Below, in pieces: positions 10,549 to 20,294 of a stretch of 32,273 nucleotides of DNA. The DNA is taken from the NCBI GenBank assembly GCA_016179105.1, contig JACOSB010000047.1, positions 1 through 32,273 of the forward strand, in the 5' to 3' direction. Each line of letters starts with the position of its first letter. Position 1 is the stretch's first letter. Under the pieces are notes generated by a model. The model had not been told where the DNA came from, made no database searches, and saw only the letters and a program-made list of their open reading frames with translations. Both the position numbers and the translations under genes were made by a program. This DNA is from Candidatus Acetothermia bacterium. Lineage in GTDB: Bacteria; Bipolaricaulota; Bipolaricaulia; RBG-16-55-9; DRXL01.

Positions 10549-11147
10549 ATGCGAGTGCACGTCTCTGGGTTGGGCTGGCAGTCGTGGCGCTGTTGGTCTC
10601 AGGGATCGGAGTACACGCGATGGCAGAGCCGAAGCCGAGTGATTTCTTTCTGGAGGAAGCACTAACAGGCAACATAGGAGCAGCCGCGGGAGGAGGGGTT
10701 GTTGCCTTGGTTACATGGCTAGCATACATGAGCTGCCCCATGAATGATTATGGAGCATGCGGTCGCAGCGTTCTCTTCCAAGGAGTGCTAGGAGTGCCTG
10801 TGGGAATAGTTGCAGGAGCTACAATTGGAGTGGAGACCGATGGCTCTATCCACGGTGTGTCGGGAAACTTGGTGGGAGCAATAGGCTTGGGAACCATGGG
10901 GGCTATCGCAGGGGTTTTCGCAGGGGCTATCGTAGGGGCTACTATCAATGCTTTGTTGGGTAATTGGCCCTTCTCGACAGTTCGTTTACCTCCAGAATTT
11001 GTCTTCCCAACAATAGGTCTGTCAGTTTGCATAGGAGCTGGATTTGGCGCAGGTTTTGGTTACAACATCGGAGCCAAGATGAAATCCGAAAAGAGCAAGC
11101 CCGTGGGGCTGAGCTGGCATCTGCCGCTGGTTGCTCTGAGATTCTGA
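10549..11147 (+). pseudogene. Glycine-rich membrane protein family, copy A, frameshifted in the signal peptide
   Basis: The frame 10584-11147 encodes a glycine-rich, several-helix protein with EPKPSDFFLEE after the signal region, two cysteines after the first helix (CPMNDYGAC) and the tail KSKPVGLSWHLPLVALRF. I do not recognise the family. The strong ribosome site AAGGAGGAGGG and ATG at 10549 are in another frame, which stops after 38 codons. Reading ATG-CGA and then shifting at 10555-10556 gives M-R-x-ARLWVGLAVVALLVSG, an ideal signal peptide, so one base is missing compared with an intact ancestor. The remnant at 11160 aligns as ATA-CGA-AAA-GCG-CGT-CTA and supports this. Only GTG 10584, without a ribosome site, could start the frame as it stands. 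A sequencing error is possible. Confidence 0.6.
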
Positions 11148-11159
11148 GAGGTGAAGACT

Positions 11160-11219
11160 ATACGAAAAGCGCGTCTATGAGTCGCAGGGACGATCTTGGC
11201 AGTGTTGGCCTGCGGGTAG
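11160..11219 (+). pseudogene. N-terminal (signal peptide) remnant of the glycine-rich family
   Basis: Behind a GAGGTGA ribosome-like site, the codons ATA CGA AAA GCG CGT CTA line up with the start of copy A, and the frame continues through a stop as VAGTILAVLACG before a second stop. It reads like a decayed signal peptide that has lost its ATG (now ATA). It begins 13 bases after copy A and lies upstream of the aldolase-like gene, with a C-terminal remnant of the same family (12355) on the far side of that gene. Confidence 0.45.
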
Positions 11220-11266
11220 GAACGACACAGAAAACAACGAATTTCCTAAACTCAAGGAGGCATCCC

Positions 11267-12343
11267 ATGGAACAAGACGATACTCTTACGTTCAGTTTTC
11301 ACGGCGAACCCACGCCACGCTTGCACGCTTTGGCCCAAGGACTAAAAGAAATCCTCGAGGTCCACGGCTATCAGTATGCCCCTCTCGCTCAAGCCCCTCG
11401 CTTGGTCTTCAATTTTATCGATTCTGAAGCGCCTCAGACCTACCGTCGTCGGGCTCAAGCGACGTTCGTGATCTCGCTCATGGAGAACCACCACACGCCG
11501 GCGGACCCCATCGCGGCGTTCTATCCGTATCTGGTCCGGGCACTTTCGAATATGCTCATGGTCTACACGCCGGGCCAAGGCGCCCGCTTTCTGACGCTGG
11601 AACTGGGGCACTACGTCGAGTCCGAAGGAGAAAGATTCTACGAGCGGTTGTATGAAAGAATTGCCCCCATCGCGCGCTCAGTGCTCGTCATCGATAACCA
11701 TTTTGAGCCCGATCTAGAACCGGAGCTATGGGAGGGAGACAAGCTGACCCGGGCGCTACACTACGCGGGCCAGAAGCTGGCCGAATGGGACCTTCTGCCC
11801 GCCCCCTTTCGGATTGATAAAATTTTGCCCCCCGACGACCTCAGACACGTCAAGCGGCTCTACGGCATTGGGGGCCTTTCCTACGGAAATCTCTCGGTTC
11901 GGAAAGATTCTCGTCGGTTCTGGATGTCTGCCTCCGGAGTGGACAAGGCCGCTCTGAGAAAAATCGGCCAGGACATCTTGATGGTGAAAGACTATGATCC
12001 GCGCGAAAACGCGATGGTGCTCTCCGTGCCGCCACATATCCAGCCGCGCCGCGTCTCGGTGGACGCGATTGAGCATTGGATGATCTACCGCGAGCATCCT
12101 ACGGTCGGCGCGATCATCCACGTGCACGCCTGGATGGAGAAAATTGCTGCGACACAGTTCAATTATCCGTGTGGAACCTATCAATTAGCGGAGGCCGTCG
12201 CGACAAAAGTGCGCGACCTGCCTGACCCGGTACGCGCGGTGGTCGGACTCAAGAATCATGGGCTTACGATCACGGGTCGGAGTCTGGAAGACATTCTTGA
12301 ACGCATCGACGGCAAGCTGCTGAAACAAGTTCCGATGATCTGA
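11267..12343 (+). CDS. Class II aldolase/adducin-domain protein with an unknown N-terminal domain
   Basis: The start is the ATG at 11267, eight bases after AAGGAGG; the open frame upstream covers another gene's end. Of 358 residues, about 190-350 form a class II aldolase/adducin domain: GGLSYGNLSVR (202-212), SASGVDK (221-227), the metal-binding HVHAW (285-289) and LKNHGLTITG (328-337). Such enzymes are zinc-dependent sugar-phosphate aldolases or epimerases. The first 185 residues are unlike that fold and I cannot assign them. The gene lies between an N-terminal and a C-terminal remnant of the glycine-rich family, as though it had been inserted into one copy. Confidence 0.75.
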   Translation: MEQDDTLTFSFHGEPTPRLHALAQGLKEILEVHGYQYAPLAQAPRLVFNFIDSEAPQTYRRRAQATFVISLMENHHTPADPIAAFYPYLVRALSNMLMVYTPGQGARFLTLELGHYVESEGERFYERLYERIAPIARSVLVIDNHFEPDLEPELWEGDKLTRALHYAGQKLAEWDLLPAPFRIDKILPPDDLRHVKRLYGIGGLSYGNLSVRKDSRRFWMSASGVDKAALRKIGQDILMVKDYDPRENAMVLSVPPHIQPRRVSVDAIEHWMIYREHPTVGAIIHVHAWMEKIAATQFNYPCGTYQLAEAVATKVRDLPDPVRAVVGLKNHGLTITGRSLEDILERIDGKLLKQVPMI

Positions 12344-12354
12344 GACATAGGTGA

Positions 12355-12408
12355 AGCGAGCCCGCCGCGCTCAGCTGGCGTCTGCCGCTGGTGGCGTTGA
12401 GGTTCTAG
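12355..12408 (+). pseudogene. C-terminal tail remnant B of the glycine-rich family
   Basis: The 17-codon frame ends SEPAALSWRLPLVALRF and a TAG stop, almost the same as the tails of the intact copies. It begins 11 bases after the aldolase stop, with a TGA just upstream in frame, so nothing else of the gene remains. Third-base differences from the other tails show it is not a fresh duplicate. Confidence 0.75.
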
Positions 12409-12481
12409 CACTCGTCTATGCGTCAGTTAGCCCCGGTTGAGCCTCAGCACACTTTCAACTAACATGAGCGAGGAGCAACTT

Positions 12482-12697
12482 ATGCAAAACGTACACGAAT
12501 TAGCCAAACAAGTCAGCTACCTGAGTGCCACTGAGAAACGAGAGCTCGTGCGTCTAGTGCCGGAATTGCTCCAAACAGATGAAGAGTTCATGCTGAAACG
12601 TTGGCATTCGGCACAAGAGGACTTAAGGTGCGATCGCGTAATCGAAACAACTACAGCCGTCAAGAAGGCCAAAGCACGACGCCGCGCTACACGGTAG
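12482..12697 (+). CDS. Antitoxin of a RelE-type pair (TA cassette 1)
   Basis: A 71-residue helical, charged protein beginning MQNVHELAKQVSYL resembles small antitoxins of the putative addiction-module type that pair with RelE/ParE toxins, with a basic C-terminal tail for toxin binding. AGGAG (12471-12475) lies six bases before this ATG, so I prefer it to the upstream in-frame ATGs at 12464 and earlier. It overlaps the toxin frame by 70 bases. Such antitoxins usually repress their own promoter; none is evident here. Confidence 0.65.
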   Translation: MQNVHELAKQVSYLSATEKRELVRLVPELLQTDEEFMLKRWHSAQEDLRCDRVIETTTAVKKAKARRRATR

Positions 12698-12969
12698 TGC
12701 TATCTCGCGCCGCTGCCAAAGATCTCGATCAATTACCCTTGCGATTGCTTGATCAGCTAAAGAGCAAGCATTTTCTGGCTTTGGCAATTGACCCTCGTGG
12801 CGCAGGACGCCCAAAGAAAGGCCAACTTGCAGGGCTGTATGGATATGAGTTTGGCCCACGTGGAGGCTACCGATTGTTGTATGACGTCTTAGATGAGAAG
12901 CGCTTAGTCCTGATCATCGCTATTGGCCCACATGACCAAGCCTATCGGCGGGCGACGCGCCGACGTTAA
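12628..12969 (+). CDS. RelE/ParE-family toxin (TA cassette 1)
   Basis: The 113-residue protein has the RelE-like core: RYTVVLSRAAAKDLDQLP, then GRPKKGQLAGLYGYEFG, a GGYRLLYDV strand and the ending LVLIIAIGPHDQAYRRA. These toxins cut mRNA on the ribosome or inhibit gyrase. GTG 12628 is chosen because AGAGGA precedes it by six bases and homology starts soon after; the open frame from 12601 has no ribosome site. The cassette lies between two tail remnants of the glycine-rich family (12355 and 13083), which suggests it arrived there by recombination. Confidence 0.75.
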   Translation: MRSRNRNNYSRQEGQSTTPRYTVVLSRAAAKDLDQLPLRLLDQLKSKHFLALAIDPRGAGRPKKGQLAGLYGYEFGPRGGYRLLYDVLDEKRLVLIIAIGPHDQAYRRATRRR

Positions 12970-13082
12970 GTGTCCCTCTCACTTCGATTCAATCACGCAG
13001 CTTATGCGATTTGCGAGTTTTCAGCTCCGTACTAGATTTGAAATACAACCAACTTCGTGATCGGCTGCCTTTTGTCCCCGCC

Positions 13083-13187
13083 GTCCTCGCCACGATCGGC
13101 TACAATTGGAGAGCCAAGATGAAATCTGACAAGAGCAAGCCCGCCGCGCTGAGCTGGCATTTGCCGCTGGTTGCACTGAGGTTTTAA
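13083..13187 (+). pseudogene. C-terminal tail remnant C of the glycine-rich family
   Basis: The frame encodes VLATIGYN, then WRAKMKSDKSKPAALSWHLP and the end LVALRF, aligning with about the last 35 residues of copies A and D (GYNxGAKMKxxKSKP). The frame stays open upstream to before 12981 but has no start signal or likeness there, apart from a short RLPFVP reminiscent of copy A. A glycine found in the intact copies is arginine here. It sits between TA cassettes 1 and 2. Confidence 0.8.
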
Positions 13188-13261
13188 TGACATCCGCTAT
13201 AGGAATACTACCTGATCGCTCAGTTGCAAGAAGATTAAGCTTGATGAATTCTCACATTACC

Positions 13262-13548
13262 CTAGCCCACTCGTCTACGCAGGGCTTCATAGAAACCTTC
13301 GCGCGGCCCGATCATAAGGACGAGTACCAGCCGATCGGCCGGGTAAATCTCATAGACGATGCGATATTGTGTGCCTTTGTAACTGAAGTGATAGGACCAG
13401 AGCCCCTTCAGATCATGAGAAAGTGATTCGGCTTGATAGGGATCTTCTTGATCTTGATCAGATGTATCGTTTTGAGCGGGACTGACAACGGCTGCTCCAA
13501 CTTACGAACGTCTTTCTTAACTGCTCTATGAAAGGTGAGCTGATACAC
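13262..13548 (-). pseudogene. RelE-family toxin, frameshifted (TA cassette 2)
   Basis: Read on the minus strand from GTG 13548, the frame gives VYQLTFHRAVKKDVRKLE and continues to KIKKI, then runs out of the family and stops at 13408. One base earlier the other frame continues DPYQAESLSHDLKGLWSYHF, YRIVYEIYPADRLVLVLMIG and REGFYEALRRRVG, ending at 13262. Together they make a complete RelE toxin of 95 residues with one base missing near 13441-13447, inside a run of AAGATC-like repeats. The start follows the antitoxin stop by three bases. Either a true loss of a toxin or a sequence error. Confidence 0.75.
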
Positions 13549-13551
13549 GCT

Positions 13552-13749
13552 CTATGCCAAGAAAAGTTCTTCTTCAGAGAGAGTCTTGCCGCTTTTCAAT
13601 TCGACGCGAGCTTTCGCCCAGCGGCTTTTGAGCTCAGCCTTGAGCTTGGGATCGAGAAGAATGACTAGAGTCTCGCGCTCCCCGGGAGTGAGCTGTTTAA
13701 GGGCTTGTGCGATCTCCTCCAGCTTCAATTCGACTTCAATTTTGGGCAT
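13552..13749 (-). CDS. Antitoxin partner of the frameshifted RelE toxin (TA cassette 2)
   Basis: A 65-residue acidic helical protein (KLEEIAQALKQLTPGERETL in the middle) of the small putative addiction-module antitoxin type. It starts after an AGGAG site at about 13755 (CTCC on the plus strand) and is followed directly by the toxin remnant. With the toxin broken it may persist as a free antitoxin. The cassette faces opposite to its neighbours. Confidence 0.7.
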   Translation of the reverse strand: MPKIEVELKLEEIAQALKQLTPGERETLVILLDPKLKAELKSRWAKARVELKSGKTLSEEELFLA

Positions 13750-13903
13750 GCAATCTCCTAGAATTCATACTAGCAAAAGAGGCTGGTTGCAGTCAAGATC
13801 GAAATTTCGGGAAGCAATTTAGTGTAAACTGCATATGCTCTTGATTTAAGGCCCTTTTAAGCCTCGCTGACTATCATAGAGCACGGAAGGAGCGTGAGCG
13901 CAG

Positions 13904-14545
13904 ATGCTCAGCAGAATCACACAGAAACTCATATCAGTCGGGGTGATCGCAGCACTGCTGATTATGACCATGCAGGCTGCATTAGGGGCACCAGCGCAGA
14001 GCCAGCCCAAGCCCAGTGACTTCTTCTGGGAAGAGGTCGGTATGGGAATGCTAGGAGAAGTTTTAGGAGCAGCTTTAGGATTTTCACTCTTTGCTTGGGT
14101 AGACTATGGTTGCCCTGGAGGTATCCTAAACTTTTTTGGGATGAGTATCTGCAAAACTAGCGGGGGCGGAGGAAAAGGGTGGACAACCCTATTCGGGGGC
14201 TTGATAGTGGGAATTCCTGTTGGAGCGAGTCTAGGTGCTATCCTGATTGGCTCCCAGAACGGTGTACAAGGCTCTATCATCTTCACGGTCGCTGTTGCTT
14301 ATGTAGGCATGATCGGGAGTATGGTGGGCATGGAATTTGTGGCTATGGTAGTAAGTCAATGGGTTCATTGGGTTAATGTTCAACCCGGCTTCACCATTGC
14401 GATTTTGTTGGGTGGTGCCACTGTGCTCGCTGTGACTGCTATTGGTGCTACCATTGGCTACAACAACGGAGCGAAGATGAAAGCCGACAAGAGCAAGCCC
14501 GCCGCGCTGAGTTGGCATATGCCGTTAATCTCCGTAAAATTCTGA
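13904..14545 (+). CDS. Glycine-rich membrane protein of an unrecognised family, copy D
   Basis: The 213-residue protein has a signal peptide (hydrophobic LISVGVIAALLIMTM, ending near ALGAPAQS), the motif QPKPSDFFWEE, then several glycine-rich hydrophobic segments with GxxxG spacing such as GGLIVGIPVGASLGAILIG. Two cysteines after the first segment (GCPGG and ICK) match a pair in copy A. It ends GYNNGAKMKADKSKP and then AALSWHMPLISVKF. Conserved ends and variable middle define the family; I do not know it. The terminal phenylalanine and alternating hydrophobic residues recall outer-membrane or sorting signals, but this is a guess. GGAAGGAG lies 11 bases before the ATG, a rather long gap. Confidence 0.7.
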   Translation: MLSRITQKLISVGVIAALLIMTMQAALGAPAQSQPKPSDFFWEEVGMGMLGEVLGAALGFSLFAWVDYGCPGGILNFFGMSICKTSGGGGKGWTTLFGGLIVGIPVGASLGAILIGSQNGVQGSIIFTVAVAYVGMIGSMVGMEFVAMVVSQWVHWVNVQPGFTIAILLGGATVLAVTAIGATIGYNNGAKMKADKSKPAALSWHMPLISVKF

Positions 14546-14577
14546 GGCTGTTTACTTCCTTCAAACAAGGAGCAACT

Positions 14578-15699
14578 ATGCCTCGGCATATCTTTCTCAC
14601 GGGCGGAACCGGACTCGTCGGAGGGTCTCTTCTCCCACGGCTGATGAGAGCTGATCCACGCGCAAAGATCACGTTGCTCGTTCGCGCTGCTTCGGAGGAA
14701 GAAGCTCAAACCCGCTTGCGTGCCATCTGGCAAGAGTGGGTTCCGCATACCGATTTTCGCCAAGTGCAGCATCAAATCCGTACGCTGCGCGGTGATGTCA
14801 CGCTTCCACGATTAGGACTTTCTGAATCAGCTTTTAGAGAACTGGCTTCCGAGGTCACAGAGATTCTGCACGCCGCCGCAACCGTGAAGTTCAATCTGCC
14901 CCTAGAAGAAGCCCGCTCAATCAACTGTCTCGGTACAAAAAATATCCTCGAACTCGCTCAGCAAGCTTCTAAATCAAAATTGAGACATATCGGTTCCATC
15001 AGCACAGCCTATGTGTGCGGCACTCGTACTGGAACTATTCTTGAAGATGAGCTTGATTGCGATCAAAGCTTTGCGAACACTTACGAGCAGGCCAAATTCG
15101 AATCTGAAAAAAATCTGGGTGCGTTCCAATCAGAATTGCCACTCACGATCTTCCGCCCCAGCATCATCATCGGTGACTCGAAGACGGGCAAGACGACAGC
15201 ATTCAATGTCATCTATTATCCCCTTAAACTTTATTACAAGCGCCTGCTGACGATGGTTCCCGGTGATCCCAAGACCAAGCTCGATGTCGTGCCCGTGGAT
15301 TATGTTGCCGATGCCCTCTGTCACATCTTGCTGAGCCCAAAACATATCGGGAAGACATACCATTTGGTAGCGGGTCCCAATCATTCAAGCAGCGCTGGAG
15401 AACTGTCGAAGCGAGCGACCGCTTACTTTAACCGAGTCAGCGCCGAAAAATTTGAACCCATCCAGTTCATCCCGCTCGAAACCTATCGAGCGTTTCGCCC
15501 AAGCGCTCCCCCATCTTGGCAAGAAGTGATGAACAAGATGGATTTCTACTTGCCCTATTTGGTCAACGAGCATGATTTTGATGATACGAACACTCGAAGT
15601 GCGCTGGCAGGCACGGGTATTCATGTCCCGCCGCTCTCGGATTATTTTGAGAAAACTTTAGAGTACTGCATCGCGACCAACTGGGGCGCAGTTCGTTAA
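14578..15699 (+). CDS. SDR-family thioester-reductase-like oxidoreductase
   Basis: The 373-residue protein starts at ATG 14578 behind AAGGAGC. It opens with the NAD(P)-binding FLTGGTGLVGGSLLPRL and has the extended-SDR features HAAATVKFN, SISTAYVCG, the YxxxK pair in TYEQAKFESE and FRPSIIIGDSKTG. This pattern is that of the NAD-binding-4/thioester-reductase group, which reduces acyl-CoA or acyl-carrier thioesters or modifies lipid head groups. It is the first gene of a set with the BtaA-like enzyme (five bases downstream) and the MMPL exporter, so a lipid substrate is likely. No membrane segment is obvious. Confidence 0.8.
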   Translation: MPRHIFLTGGTGLVGGSLLPRLMRADPRAKITLLVRAASEEEAQTRLRAIWQEWVPHTDFRQVQHQIRTLRGDVTLPRLGLSESAFRELASEVTEILHAAATVKFNLPLEEARSINCLGTKNILELAQQASKSKLRHIGSISTAYVCGTRTGTILEDELDCDQSFANTYEQAKFESEKNLGAFQSELPLTIFRPSIIIGDSKTGKTTAFNVIYYPLKLYYKRLLTMVPGDPKTKLDVVPVDYVADALCHILLSPKHIGKTYHLVAGPNHSSSAGELSKRATAYFNRVSAEKFEPIQFIPLETYRAFRPSAPPSWQEVMNKMDFYLPYLVNEHDFDDTNTRSALAGTGIHVPPLSDYFEKTLEYCIATNWGAVR

Positions 15700-15704
15700 T
15701 TTCT

Positions 15705-16862
15705 ATGCAGAGCGAGATCCGCACAAAAACATTCTTCGACAAGATTCGTTACAGCCAGTGCTGGGAAGACCCCAAGCTCTTGTACGAAGGACTCCGAATC
15801 ACTCCGGAAGATGATGTGCTCTCCATCAGCTCCGGCGGCTGCAATACGCTCGCACTCTTATTAAAAAATCCTCAGAGCGTGACAGCGATCGACTTCAATC
15901 TTTCACAAAACTGTTTGTTAGAGCTGAAAGTGGCTGCATTGCAAAACTTAGACTATGCAGACTTCATCGCCTTCTTGGGCGTTCGACCGATAGAGCATCG
16001 CTGGGAGCTCTATCAAAACATTCGTGTGGGACTGTCCCCCACTGCGCGCGGTTACTGGGATACTCAGCGCACGATGATCGAGCAAGGTGTGCTACACGTC
16101 GGTCGCTTTGAGAACTATCTCCGTATGTTCAGACAAACGATCTTGCCGCTCGTGCACACTCATCGGACGATTGAGCAACTACTCTCACTGAAAACGCTCG
16201 AAGAACAAAAATGTTTCTATGAAAGTATTTGGGATAATCGTCGTTGGCGGTTTCTCTTCAGAGTTTTCTTCGGGAAACTCATGCTCGGCCGACTGGGCCG
16301 CGATCCCGAATTCTTTAAGTACGTTCAAATTGAGAACGTCGGCGAGCACTATCTCCAGCGGGCCAAATACGCACTCACAGAAATCCCGATCCAAGGGAAT
16401 TTTTATGCTGAGCACATCTTGACGGGCGCTTACTCCAATCTCGAACAAACGCATCCTTATTTGATTGAATCCAATTTTCAAAAGCTGCGCGAAAATTTAG
16501 CTAAACTGAAAATTGTCACGGGTGAACTTGAAAAATTTCTGGATGAAAAACCCGAAGGGTCTTTCTCTAAATTCAATCTTTCGGATATTTTCGAATGGAT
16601 GTCACAGGCAAACTACGAAGCGCTTTTGAGAGCGATCATGCGCGCCAGCCGCGACGGTGCTCGGCTTTGCTACTGGAATAATTTAGTCTTGCGCGAGCAT
16701 CCGTCTTCCCTCGACGATCGACTGCAAAGCCATCGTGAGCTTGCTCAGCAATTGCACTTCCAGGACCGATCGTTTGTTTACAGAAATTTTGTGGTCGAGA
16801 GTGTGCATAAACCATCGGCTGCCGATGCCCTAGACACTATCAGCACCATAAGTGTAAAATGA
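15705..16862 (+). CDS. btaA: BtaA-like S-adenosylmethionine:diacylglycerol 3-amino-3-carboxypropyl transferase (DUF3419)
   Basis: The 385-residue protein matches BtaA/DUF3419: RYSQCWEDP at 15-23, SISSGGCNTLALL at 40-52 (SAM site) and AIDFNLSQNCLLELKVAAL from 61, where the usual DxNPxQ has leucine for proline. BtaA transfers the aminocarboxypropyl group of SAM to diacylglycerol, the first step to betaine lipids; the N-methylating partner BtaB is not in this window. The C-terminus is unusual: after FVYRNFVVESV it runs on for 18 residues and its stop overlaps hicB (ATGA). A second copy of the end lies at 17398-17463, right before the exporter, and ends RP-stop, so the present tail was probably changed when hicBA arrived. 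Confidence 0.85.
   Translation: MQSEIRTKTFFDKIRYSQCWEDPKLLYEGLRITPEDDVLSISSGGCNTLALLLKNPQSVTAIDFNLSQNCLLELKVAALQNLDYADFIAFLGVRPIEHRWELYQNIRVGLSPTARGYWDTQRTMIEQGVLHVGRFENYLRMFRQTILPLVHTHRTIEQLLSLKTLEEQKCFYESIWDNRRWRFLFRVFFGKLMLGRLGRDPEFFKYVQIENVGEHYLQRAKYALTEIPIQGNFYAEHILTGAYSNLEQTHPYLIESNFQKLRENLAKLKIVTGELEKFLDEKPEGSFSKFNLSDIFEWMSQANYEALLRAIMRASRDGARLCYWNNLVLREHPSSLDDRLQSHRELAQQLHFQDRSFVYRNFVVESVHKPSAADALDTISTISVK
16779..16806 (+). repeat. 28-bp direct repeat, copy 1 (in btaA)
   Basis: This stretch, encoding YRNFVVESV and starting TACAGAAATTTTGTGG, is identical to 17428-17455. It lies near the 3' end of btaA. The next 30 bases upstream are also alike at the protein level but differ in several third positions. 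Confidence 0.9.
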
Positions 16863-17167
16863 ACTTCGTTATGAAGAAAAAACTCTTGCAGCTTACCTGC
16901 CTAATCAAAAAAGAAGGAAATCAGTACTCGTCTCTTTGCTTGGAACTGGATGTAGCCTCTTGTGGCAAGACACGAGAGGAGGCATTTGCAGGGCTGAAGG
17001 CAGCTATCGAGACGTACGCCAATTACTTAGTCGAAGAAGACAGGGAAGAAGAGCTCTACCGCCCTGTCCCTCAGCAAGCGATCCGGGAATTTCTGCTAGG
17101 AGAAGTAGAGGAGAGAAAACTCATCACCGTCTACGCGATGCCATTAGAATTCTCCTATGCTTCGTGA
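16859..17167 (+). CDS. hicB: HicB-like antitoxin
   Basis: The 102-residue protein has the HicB/UPF0150 pattern: a strand QLTCLIKKEGNQYSSLCLEL, then VASCGKTREEAFAGLKAAIE, which is the partial RNase-H-like fold of HicB antitoxins that neutralise HicA. Its ATG overlaps the btaA stop, and the hicA start overlaps its own end by 11 bases. The order antitoxin then toxin occurs in many systems. The first ATG (16859) has no clear ribosome site, which suits translational coupling to btaA; a second ATG at 16871 is possible. Confidence 0.8.
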   Translation: MNFVMKKKLLQLTCLIKKEGNQYSSLCLELDVASCGKTREEAFAGLKAAIETYANYLVEEDREEELYRPVPQQAIREFLLGEVEERKLITVYAMPLEFSYAS

Positions 17168-17396
17168 TCTTTCCAGCGATGAAGTAGCCGCCTTGCTTCA
17201 GAAGATTGGCATCATATTCAAGCGACATGGGAAAGAAGACATCTACGGAGGATATTTCCGCGGGAAAGTTCGTACTGTGATTGTGCCTCGAAATAAGAAG
17301 AGCATCCCCAAAGGAACTCTTGCCAGCATCTTCCGCCAAGCGGGCATTACACGAAAAGAGGCAGAGAAATTATTCCATGAAGAGAAGATTCACTAA
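17157..17396 (+). CDS. hicA: HicA-like toxin
   Basis: The 79-residue protein has the small double-stranded-RNA-binding fold of HicA: SSDEVAALLQKIGIIFKRHG, then VRTVIVPRNKKSIPKGTL and IFRQAGITRKEAEKL. HicA toxins cut mRNA using a histidine usually in a GSHH or NHD setting; here the place reads RHGKEDIY, so the only candidate is His24, slightly shifted. Activity is therefore uncertain. It is followed after one base by a copy of the btaA 3' end. Confidence 0.75.
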   Translation: MLRDLSSDEVAALLQKIGIIFKRHGKEDIYGGYFRGKVRTVIVPRNKKSIPKGTLASIFRQAGITRKEAEKLFHEEKIH

Positions 17397-17397
17397 A

Positions 17398-17463
17398 GAG
17401 CTGCACTTTTGCGATTGCCCTTTCGTCTACAGAAATTTTGTGGTCGAGAGTGTGCGTCCCTGA
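17398..17463 (+). pseudogene. Duplicated 3' end of btaA
   Basis: Twenty-one codons read ELHFCDCPFVYRNFVVESVR plus P and a stop, matching QLHFQDRSFVYRNFVVESV of btaA. Codons differ at third bases upstream of the identical 28-bp core. The TGA stop overlaps the ATG of the MMPL gene, the arrangement expected for the original btaA-exporter junction. I infer that this is the older btaA terminus left behind when hicBA and a new end entered. Confidence 0.85.
17428..17455 (+). repeat. 28-bp direct repeat, copy 2 (before the MMPL gene)
   Basis: Identical to 16779-16806. The segment between the two copies carries hicB and hicA, and the repeat pair bounds a unit of 649 bases. Confidence 0.9.
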
Positions 17464-19731: not shown

Positions 19732-19745
19732 ATGGTGATTTGAAC

Positions 19746-19967
19746 ATGCCGAAGAAACCTATCACGTTGACTCTTTCCGATGAAGTGCTGGAACAACTGG
19801 AAATGGTCGCCGAACACCAGAAGCGTTCGCTCAGCTCTCAGATCGATCTAGCTCTGAGGGACTGGTTACATCTGAAAGAAGAGCTGCACCCGCAGTTCAT
19901 GGCGGACATCAAAGAAGCCCTGCGCGGGGTCAAACGCGGTCAAGTCGAACCAATCTGGAAAGGATAA
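19746..19967 (+). CDS. Ribbon-helix-helix (CopG/Arc-type) antitoxin
   Basis: The 73-residue protein begins with a DNA-binding strand and two helices (ITLTLSDEVLEQLEMVAEHQ, then SLSSQIDLALRDWL), the usual RHH layout, and ends with a toxin-binding helix. I use ATG 19746; the earlier TTG at 19740 is in frame but less likely. The toxin begins three bases after its stop. An inverted repeat in the promoter suggests self-regulation. Confidence 0.8.
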   Translation: MPKKPITLTLSDEVLEQLEMVAEHQKRSLSSQIDLALRDWLHLKEELHPQFMADIKEALRGVKRGQVEPIWKG

Positions 19968-19970
19968 ATC

Positions 19971-20294
19971 GTGGGTGCCCTGCCCAGGGAGCGAAAGCCC
20001 TACCAGCAATTGGCTTATCCTAAATACAATCAGACCAAGAAGAAACTACCAGAAATCCTTCGCAAAGAATTGAACCTCCAGGAGAACTTAATCGCCCAAA
20101 ACCCACTACTCGGAATGCCCAAAAAGGGCGAGCTGCGCGGTATCTATGTGCATAAGTTCAATCTTTTGGGGCAAGAATACTTGCTCGCTTATAGGCCCGA
20201 TCACAAGGCGAAGGCCATCATCTTCCTGGCGATCGGAGGTCACGAGAACTTCTATCGTGATCTCGCTCATTACTTGAAAAAACAGGAAAACTAG
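19971..20294 (+). CDS. RelE-family toxin paired with the RHH antitoxin
   Basis: This 107-residue basic protein starts with GTG 19971. The segments LRKELNLQENLIAQNPLLGM, GELRGIYVHKF, EYLLAYRPD and IIFLAIGGHENFYRDL follow the RelE/ParE arrangement (helices, then three strands ending in a basic strand). Presumed action is translation-dependent mRNA cleavage or gyrase poisoning. Its TAG stop is the first three bases of a palindromic repeat (20292-20332), so the repeat defines the protein's end. Confidence 0.75.
   Translation: MGALPRERKPYQQLAYPKYNQTKKKLPEILRKELNLQENLIAQNPLLGMPKKGELRGIYVHKFNLLGQEYLLAYRPDHKAKAIIFLAIGGHENFYRDLAHYLKKQEN

Follow-up and report, generated by a model that had tools for sequence, protein, structure and literature searches.

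Sequential displacement by homology-facilitated illegitimate recombination has been proposed for the T6SS effector-immunity arrays of Vibrio (PMC5361080). In E. coli, single crossovers of re-circularised linear DNA led to duplications of 109-950 bp in 56 of 60 clones (PMC3240628), and insertion of R-M systems with long target duplication was described by Nobusato (2000; reviewed in PMC3874152). Here we describe a hicBA toxin-antitoxin (TA) pair that is enclosed by two copies of the end of its neighbouring gene, an architecture that recurs with other TA families, at other genes and in other phyla. With a probability of roughly 0.7, we consider that a TA cassette comes in when a gene end recombines with a diverged allele of that end, and that the old end is displaced in the process.

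The hicBA pair lies between btaA and the exporter gene mmpL (Table 1), in a window of 32,273 nucleotides. The initial annotation had reported that an identical 28-bp direct repeat (16779-16806 and 17428-17455) bounds a 649-base hicBA unit, and its coordinates, identity and spacing all turned out to be exact. The repeat extends upstream to 54 nt with an 80% match (16753-16806 and 17402-17455), and in this longer form it encloses hicBA. The two btaA copies have no mismatches in the 28-nt block compared with 11 in the adjoining 26 positions, and 7 of these 11 are at third codon positions, in line with the third-base differences that had been noted just outside the repeat. When up to 3 mismatches were allowed, the 28-mer had no third site in the whole 3.7-Mb genome and was present at these two positions only. 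The left copy reads LHFQDRSFVYRNFVVESV and then runs on as HKPSAADALDTISTISVK*, so that btaA continues for 18 codons past the repeat and its stop overlaps the ATG of hicB (ATGA, 16859-16862). The right copy terminates in CGTCCCTGATG, and its stop (17461-17463) overlaps the mmpL ATG at 17463. Both neighbours of the unit stay readable, as the initial annotation had it. The tail HKPSAADALDTISTISVK* probably arrived together with hicBA. The right copy is probably the displaced original end of btaA, with the displacement argued by analogy from the leuD loci described below, and mmpL is the original downstream neighbour of btaA and is listed as such in Table 1.

Table 1. Features around the two TA arrays in the window (positions are those of the whole stretch).
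Feature	Position	Strand	Evidence
Gene whose end ..SKPVGLSWHLPLVALRF* recurs downstream	10584..11147	+	
First loose copy of the 10584..11147 gene end	12355..12407	+	
Antitoxin-like ORF (12437-12697) and ParE-type toxin (12601-12969)	12437..12969	+	PF05016 2e-8
Second loose copy of the 10584..11147 gene end	13096..13187	+	
Probable decayed TA pair: weak ParE-like match (13298-13432) with an antitoxin-like ORF (13552-13749)	13298..13749	-	E 0.004 for the ParE-like match
Full-length paralog with an end of the same type	13904..14545	+	
Reductase gene	14512-15699		PF07993
btaA (DUF3419), host gene	15705..16862	+	PF11899 5e-80
Left btaA-end copy, with the 28-bp identical block 16779-16806	16753..16806	+	
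New btaA tail HKPSAADALDTISTISVK*	16807..16862	+	
hicB-like antitoxin gene	16859..17167	+	position, length, sequence style
hicA toxin gene	17157..17396	+	PF07927 1.8e-9 (above cut-off); 1whz_A 1e-4
Right btaA-end copy, ending ..LHFCDCPFVYRNFVVESVRP*	17402..17463	+	repeat match
mmpL exporter gene, original downstream neighbour of btaA	17463..19703	+	PF03176 1.6e-98

The HicB-like ORF encodes 102 amino acids, overlaps hicA and has no Pfam match, its name being based on position, length and sequence style. In HicA toxins the catalytic histidine is part of a GSH/GGH motif. When the HicA found here is aligned to 1whz_A, the residues KED are placed opposite GGH, and the usual catalytic histidine may be absent from this protein. 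No tRNA or Rfam features were found in the window, and no attC cores (GTTRRRY or RYYYAAC) on the plus strand between 16700 and 17480. BtaA relatives show two styles of protein end, which is either short (..HVESVR*, L007) or tailed (..VERVKKAARPQATA*, L003); tailed ends are found in L003 and L004. Another TA pair, consisting of an RHH antitoxin and a ParE-like toxin, is located directly 3' of mmpL (19740-20294), and neither the repeat scan nor inspection of the sequence revealed a copy of the mmpL end near it.

An empty btaA site was sought in related genomes. As btaA is absent from all 99 relatives, there is no empty site for comparison. The initial annotation had named a btaA ending without hicBA in relatives as counterevidence; such an ending would instead be the expected empty site. 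In the DNA surrounding 22 BtaA relatives from elsewhere, no mmpL match was found, and the reductase was present near two of them. The btaA case is therefore best seen as an argument from its own sequence combined with analogy to other loci, and because the repeat is short, the allelic nature of the btaA copies rests on 11 mismatches.

A second array is found in the same window (10584-14545), where ParE-type TA genes are accompanied by two loose copies of a gene's 3' end, and a full paralog stands on either side. The first interval of this array also contains a class II aldolase-like gene.

For the repeat analyses, about 1.7 Mb of the 3.7-Mb genome was read in stretches. Direct repeats bracket 16 of the genome's own 53 toxin loci, versus 26 of 600 random positions (Fisher p=1.3e-8), although a few of the 53 share one array, so that they are not fully independent. 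At several toxin loci, the brackets repeat the 3' or the 5' end of the gene next door. The local direct-repeat scan gave no match in second-order random sequence of the same 254 kb. Of 1349 genes, 22 had a copy of their last 66 nt within the next ~2.2 kb at a score of at least 18, tandem paralogs being among them, and none did when the queries were reversed. At the protein level, a gene terminus is copied across a TA pair at 11 of the 53 loci, of which one or two are marginal (L212, perhaps L211), compared with 0 for reversed peptides. This protein search is noisy in GC-rich relatives (8 reversed matches in 48), and only high-scoring cases were used there. The genome has 16 HicA matches, and close to several of them a neighbouring gene has its end repeated, but the scar is not limited to hicBA: the bracketed TA families also include DUF4258/MqsA-like, DUF4258/DUF2283, MazE/PIN, DUF433/DUF5615, ParE and HEPN/MNT-type. 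Only a minority of TA loci carry it. Tandem paralogs and domain repeats (L157, L104, L061, and L050 at 16-19 kb) were excluded from the cases as paralogy. At one of these, L157 13990-17600 (contig C116), several diverged paralogs stand in tandem; their 3' ends are very similar, and they appear to be small membrane-protein-like genes.

The individual cases in this genome differ in the gene that is copied and in the number of copies. As an example, the end of proS (..KEKVIFAKAY*) recurs 649 bp further on, where a DUF7718/DUF5647 pair precedes the copy and a hicBA pair follows it. The end of an enoyl-CoA hydratase / 3-hydroxyacyl-CoA dehydrogenase gene (..VNSFLMKKKPEFK) recurs directly 3' of hicA, and for an ABC permease-like gene (..KRTGRLKRSG*) the copy forms the end of a PIN toxin. 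The end of a TPR gene (..LLKQWGLEK*) occurs four times around three TA cassettes. Gene starts can be copied as well: the start of a methyltransferase gene has a copy upstream of a DUF4258/DUF2283 pair, and at L050 4231-5141 (contig C8) a DUF433/DUF5615 pair situated at a gene's 5' end is enclosed by a 93-bp duplication that is 100% identical. Of a different kind are the hicBA units at L090 1780-3492 (C49) and L132 16459-17384 (C91), where three copies of a short repeat form the bounds (TGTCTGTAATGGGAATTACGTTGGG and CAAAGACAGAACTTTCAGGGA, respectively) and are not obviously gene ends. At L068 2103-2826 (contig C26), a tRNA-Gly gene and a truncated, identical copy of 63 nt flank an HVO_A0114-type HTH gene, as if the unit had inserted into the tRNA-Gly gene.

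Relatives have gene-end copies around TA pairs too, at leuD (L164) and at glycosyltransferase ends in three cases (L178, L184, L186), and in one relative hicBA and a ParE toxin are set among three copies of the wecB end (L233). Outside the phylum, HicA cassettes lie between three copies of one gene end at L249, a glycosyltransferase start occurs three times around HicA and ParE cassettes at L264, and another gene end is copied at L265. At L260 there is a possible copy of a tRNA 3' end, with no tRNA called by either Rfam or ARAGORN. A flanking repeat was also sought at hicAB of E. coli K-12, and none was found. The claim that recombination at the end of a gene brought in the TA unit, which the initial annotation had made for btaA, gains support from this occurrence of the same architecture at many other loci.

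The order of insertion can be read at leuD. Four genomes of one family have arrays with different TA cassettes between leuD and old leuD ends (DUF4258 and HicB are labelled here by Pfam, HEPN/MNT by sequence style). In G059 the array is leuD-(DUF4258/DUF2283)-end copy, in G061 it is leuD-(DUF4258/DUF2283)-end-(HEPN/MNT-type pair)-end-(HicB), and in G083 it is leuD-(HEPN/MNT-type pair)-end-(HicB). G089 has leuD-(hicBA)-end-(HicB), together with an extra end copy beside a HEPN/MNT-type pair ~6 kb away. The 77-bp spacer 3' of leuD in G083 is identical at 73 of 77 positions to the spacer 3' of leuD-end copy 1 in its congener G061, and it is unlike the spacer directly 3' of leuD in G061. By this match, G083 has the site without the extra cassette and G061 the filled one, in which copy 1 finishes as the old end that was displaced. 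The displaced end keeps its downstream neighbour at leuD (G061 versus G083), as the right copy does at btaA, where it overlaps mmpL. Homology is also seen in the spacer that precedes the common HicB gene, between G083 and G061 and, at a weaker level, G089 (alignment scores 51, 21, 23; shuffled maximum 12). G059 and G061 share the position of the junction between DUF2283 and the end copy (95 of 120 aligned bases identical), so this junction either moves along with the cassette or goes back to an ancestor of the two. It is worth pointing out that, when leuD copies from homologous positions are compared between species, they still resemble constrained coding sequence. Since a simple displaced fossil should not look constrained, this counts against displacement, unless the copies have been renewed through recombination with functional genes or were displaced only recently, and their appearance would suit either. 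The downstream btaA copy had been taken for the original junction, and this finds support in the filled and unfilled leuD sites, with the btaA case itself following by analogy.

An unlikely alternative for btaA is that hicBA inserted into the resident btaA end and copied ~54 bp of its target, after which the dead copy drifted. Long target duplications of variable length (on the order of 100 bp) are known for R-M systems (PMC3874152), and the perfect 93-bp duplication at L050 looks like a recent event of that kind; this locus fits better with insertion by true target duplication, and is the best candidate for it. Elsewhere, the copies differ in the way coding alleles do: mismatches between gene and copy at codon positions 1/2/3 are 45/26/124, in counts that pool non-independent pairs, and in the leuD set the third-position share is 71% for gene-copy pairs versus 66% for gene-gene pairs. 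A constrained gene paired with a free copy would also give some third-position excess, so that the excess alone cannot separate displacement from target duplication, and longer copies and three-way tests were needed. Copying from the resident gene followed by decay predicts a more even spread over codon positions, and a copy that is nearest to the adjacent gene. For the leuD copy in G089, three-way shared-site counts are 8/7/7, i.e. its own gene is about as distant as the leuD of a sister species, and for the glycosyltransferase copy in a closed genome, the gene beside it is a slightly more distant match than two orthologs from sister species (9/14/8 and 6/14/8), although short sequences limit this test. 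As neither prediction holds, the two ends are better explained as different alleles joined by recombination. Resident origin of both copies thus does not fit leuD or the glycosyltransferase, but is compatible with L050. At btaA, the mismatches are unevenly spread along the copies, which fits a crossover inside the identical block. Judging from sequence comparison, most of the copies open to such a test are foreign or displaced alleles rather than duplicates of the resident end. The initial annotation had already attributed the second ending to a different allele, which the predominance of third-position differences between the copies supports; its word "duplication" is probably wrong for most cases, as the copy comes from another allele and does not duplicate the adjacent gene.

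Very unlikely, in our view, is a site-specific cassette system in which the boundaries are attachment sites, recognised in trans by an integrase or a recombinase of the Xer type. Arrays to which cassettes are added at the proximal side do resemble integrons, and TA genes are reported to be carried in dif modules (PMC13141974). Against this, the boundary sequence differs from gene to gene and is simply that gene's own end, the btaA 28-mer is confined to this locus, and the tested interval has no attC cores. It is harder still to believe in an assembly artefact, or in a chance or paralogous repeat unconnected to the TA pair. Most source genomes are metagenome assemblies, and some repeats from the scan are indeed tandem paralogs (L157, L104, L061), but the null counts were 0, the copies are non-identical, repeats are in excess at TA loci, and the layout recurs in many genomes. 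One of the glycosyltransferase-end cases (L186, G020) is in a closed genome, which means that assembly is not the cause.

Recombination with a diverged allele at the gene end, which we prefer, would proceed as follows. A fragment from another cell, carrying the 3' end of a btaA' allele followed by hicBA, would cross over with the resident btaA end inside the 28-bp block that is identical in both alleles. The fragment could have been circularised and taken in through a RecA-type single crossover, or the reaction could be homology-facilitated illegitimate recombination, which is RecA-dependent and has 3-10 bp of microhomology at its illegitimate joint. In the product, btaA would have a foreign tail and be followed by hicBA, and behind hicBA would come the displaced original end, still overlapping mmpL. 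Repeated events at one gene would stack cassettes that are each bounded by an old gene end, as seen for leuD, the TPR gene and wecB. Gene ends would be favoured because insertion there leaves both neighbours intact, and TA pairs because their loss is costly (addiction). More tentatively, and with more doubt than conviction, TA pairs of many families could form a general integrase-free cassette system, in which they are excised and re-inserted as small circles with the gene-end copies as recombination sites. If this is true, any conserved gene end could head an array that records successive insertions between species.

TA pairs pass widely between genomes, and the recurring layout suggests that they move by recombining at ordinary gene ends, with the old end left behind like sediment. 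Movement of this kind would take place without a transposon, plasmid or integron, and the gene-end copies would be its readable scar, from which insertion sites can be located, insertions ordered in time, donor lineages traced and the mechanism tested. Gene-end copies would also account for the entry of TA pairs into operons without gene breakage, and annotators could read truncated gene ends as insertion scars instead of pseudogenes. No account of TA pairs enclosed by copies of gene ends came up in an open-access literature search, which may have overlooked a report in a subscription journal.

Compared with known systems, the arrays are like those of Vibrio T6SS loci (PMC5361080) in that a newcomer pair is placed beside a conserved gene or domain, old genes and ends are pushed downstream, successive insertions are recorded, and an integrase is not needed. 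In Vibrio, however, the genes that are displaced are immunity genes belonging to a single T6SS locus, and a new effector takes the place of the old one, whereas the anchors here are ordinary metabolic genes that stay intact, and the cargo, type II-like TA pairs, comes from many families and is found in many phyla. The single-crossover reaction in E. coli (PMC3240628) likewise puts the insert between two copies of the homologous end, but it is a laboratory by-product, and TA genes or a natural cassette route are not described there. As in R-M insertion, a unit with a toxin-like and an antitoxin-like part lies between long target copies of variable length, and L050 resembles that type; unlike in R-M insertion, most copies here appear to be other alleles and not duplicates of the resident target. 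Integron cassettes and the dif modules of Acinetobacter are also small units, often TA pairs, that are stacked between short recombination sites. The tested cassette differs from integrons in having neither attC cores nor a shared site, and where dif modules all use the same 28-bp dif-type site, each array described here uses the end of its own gene.
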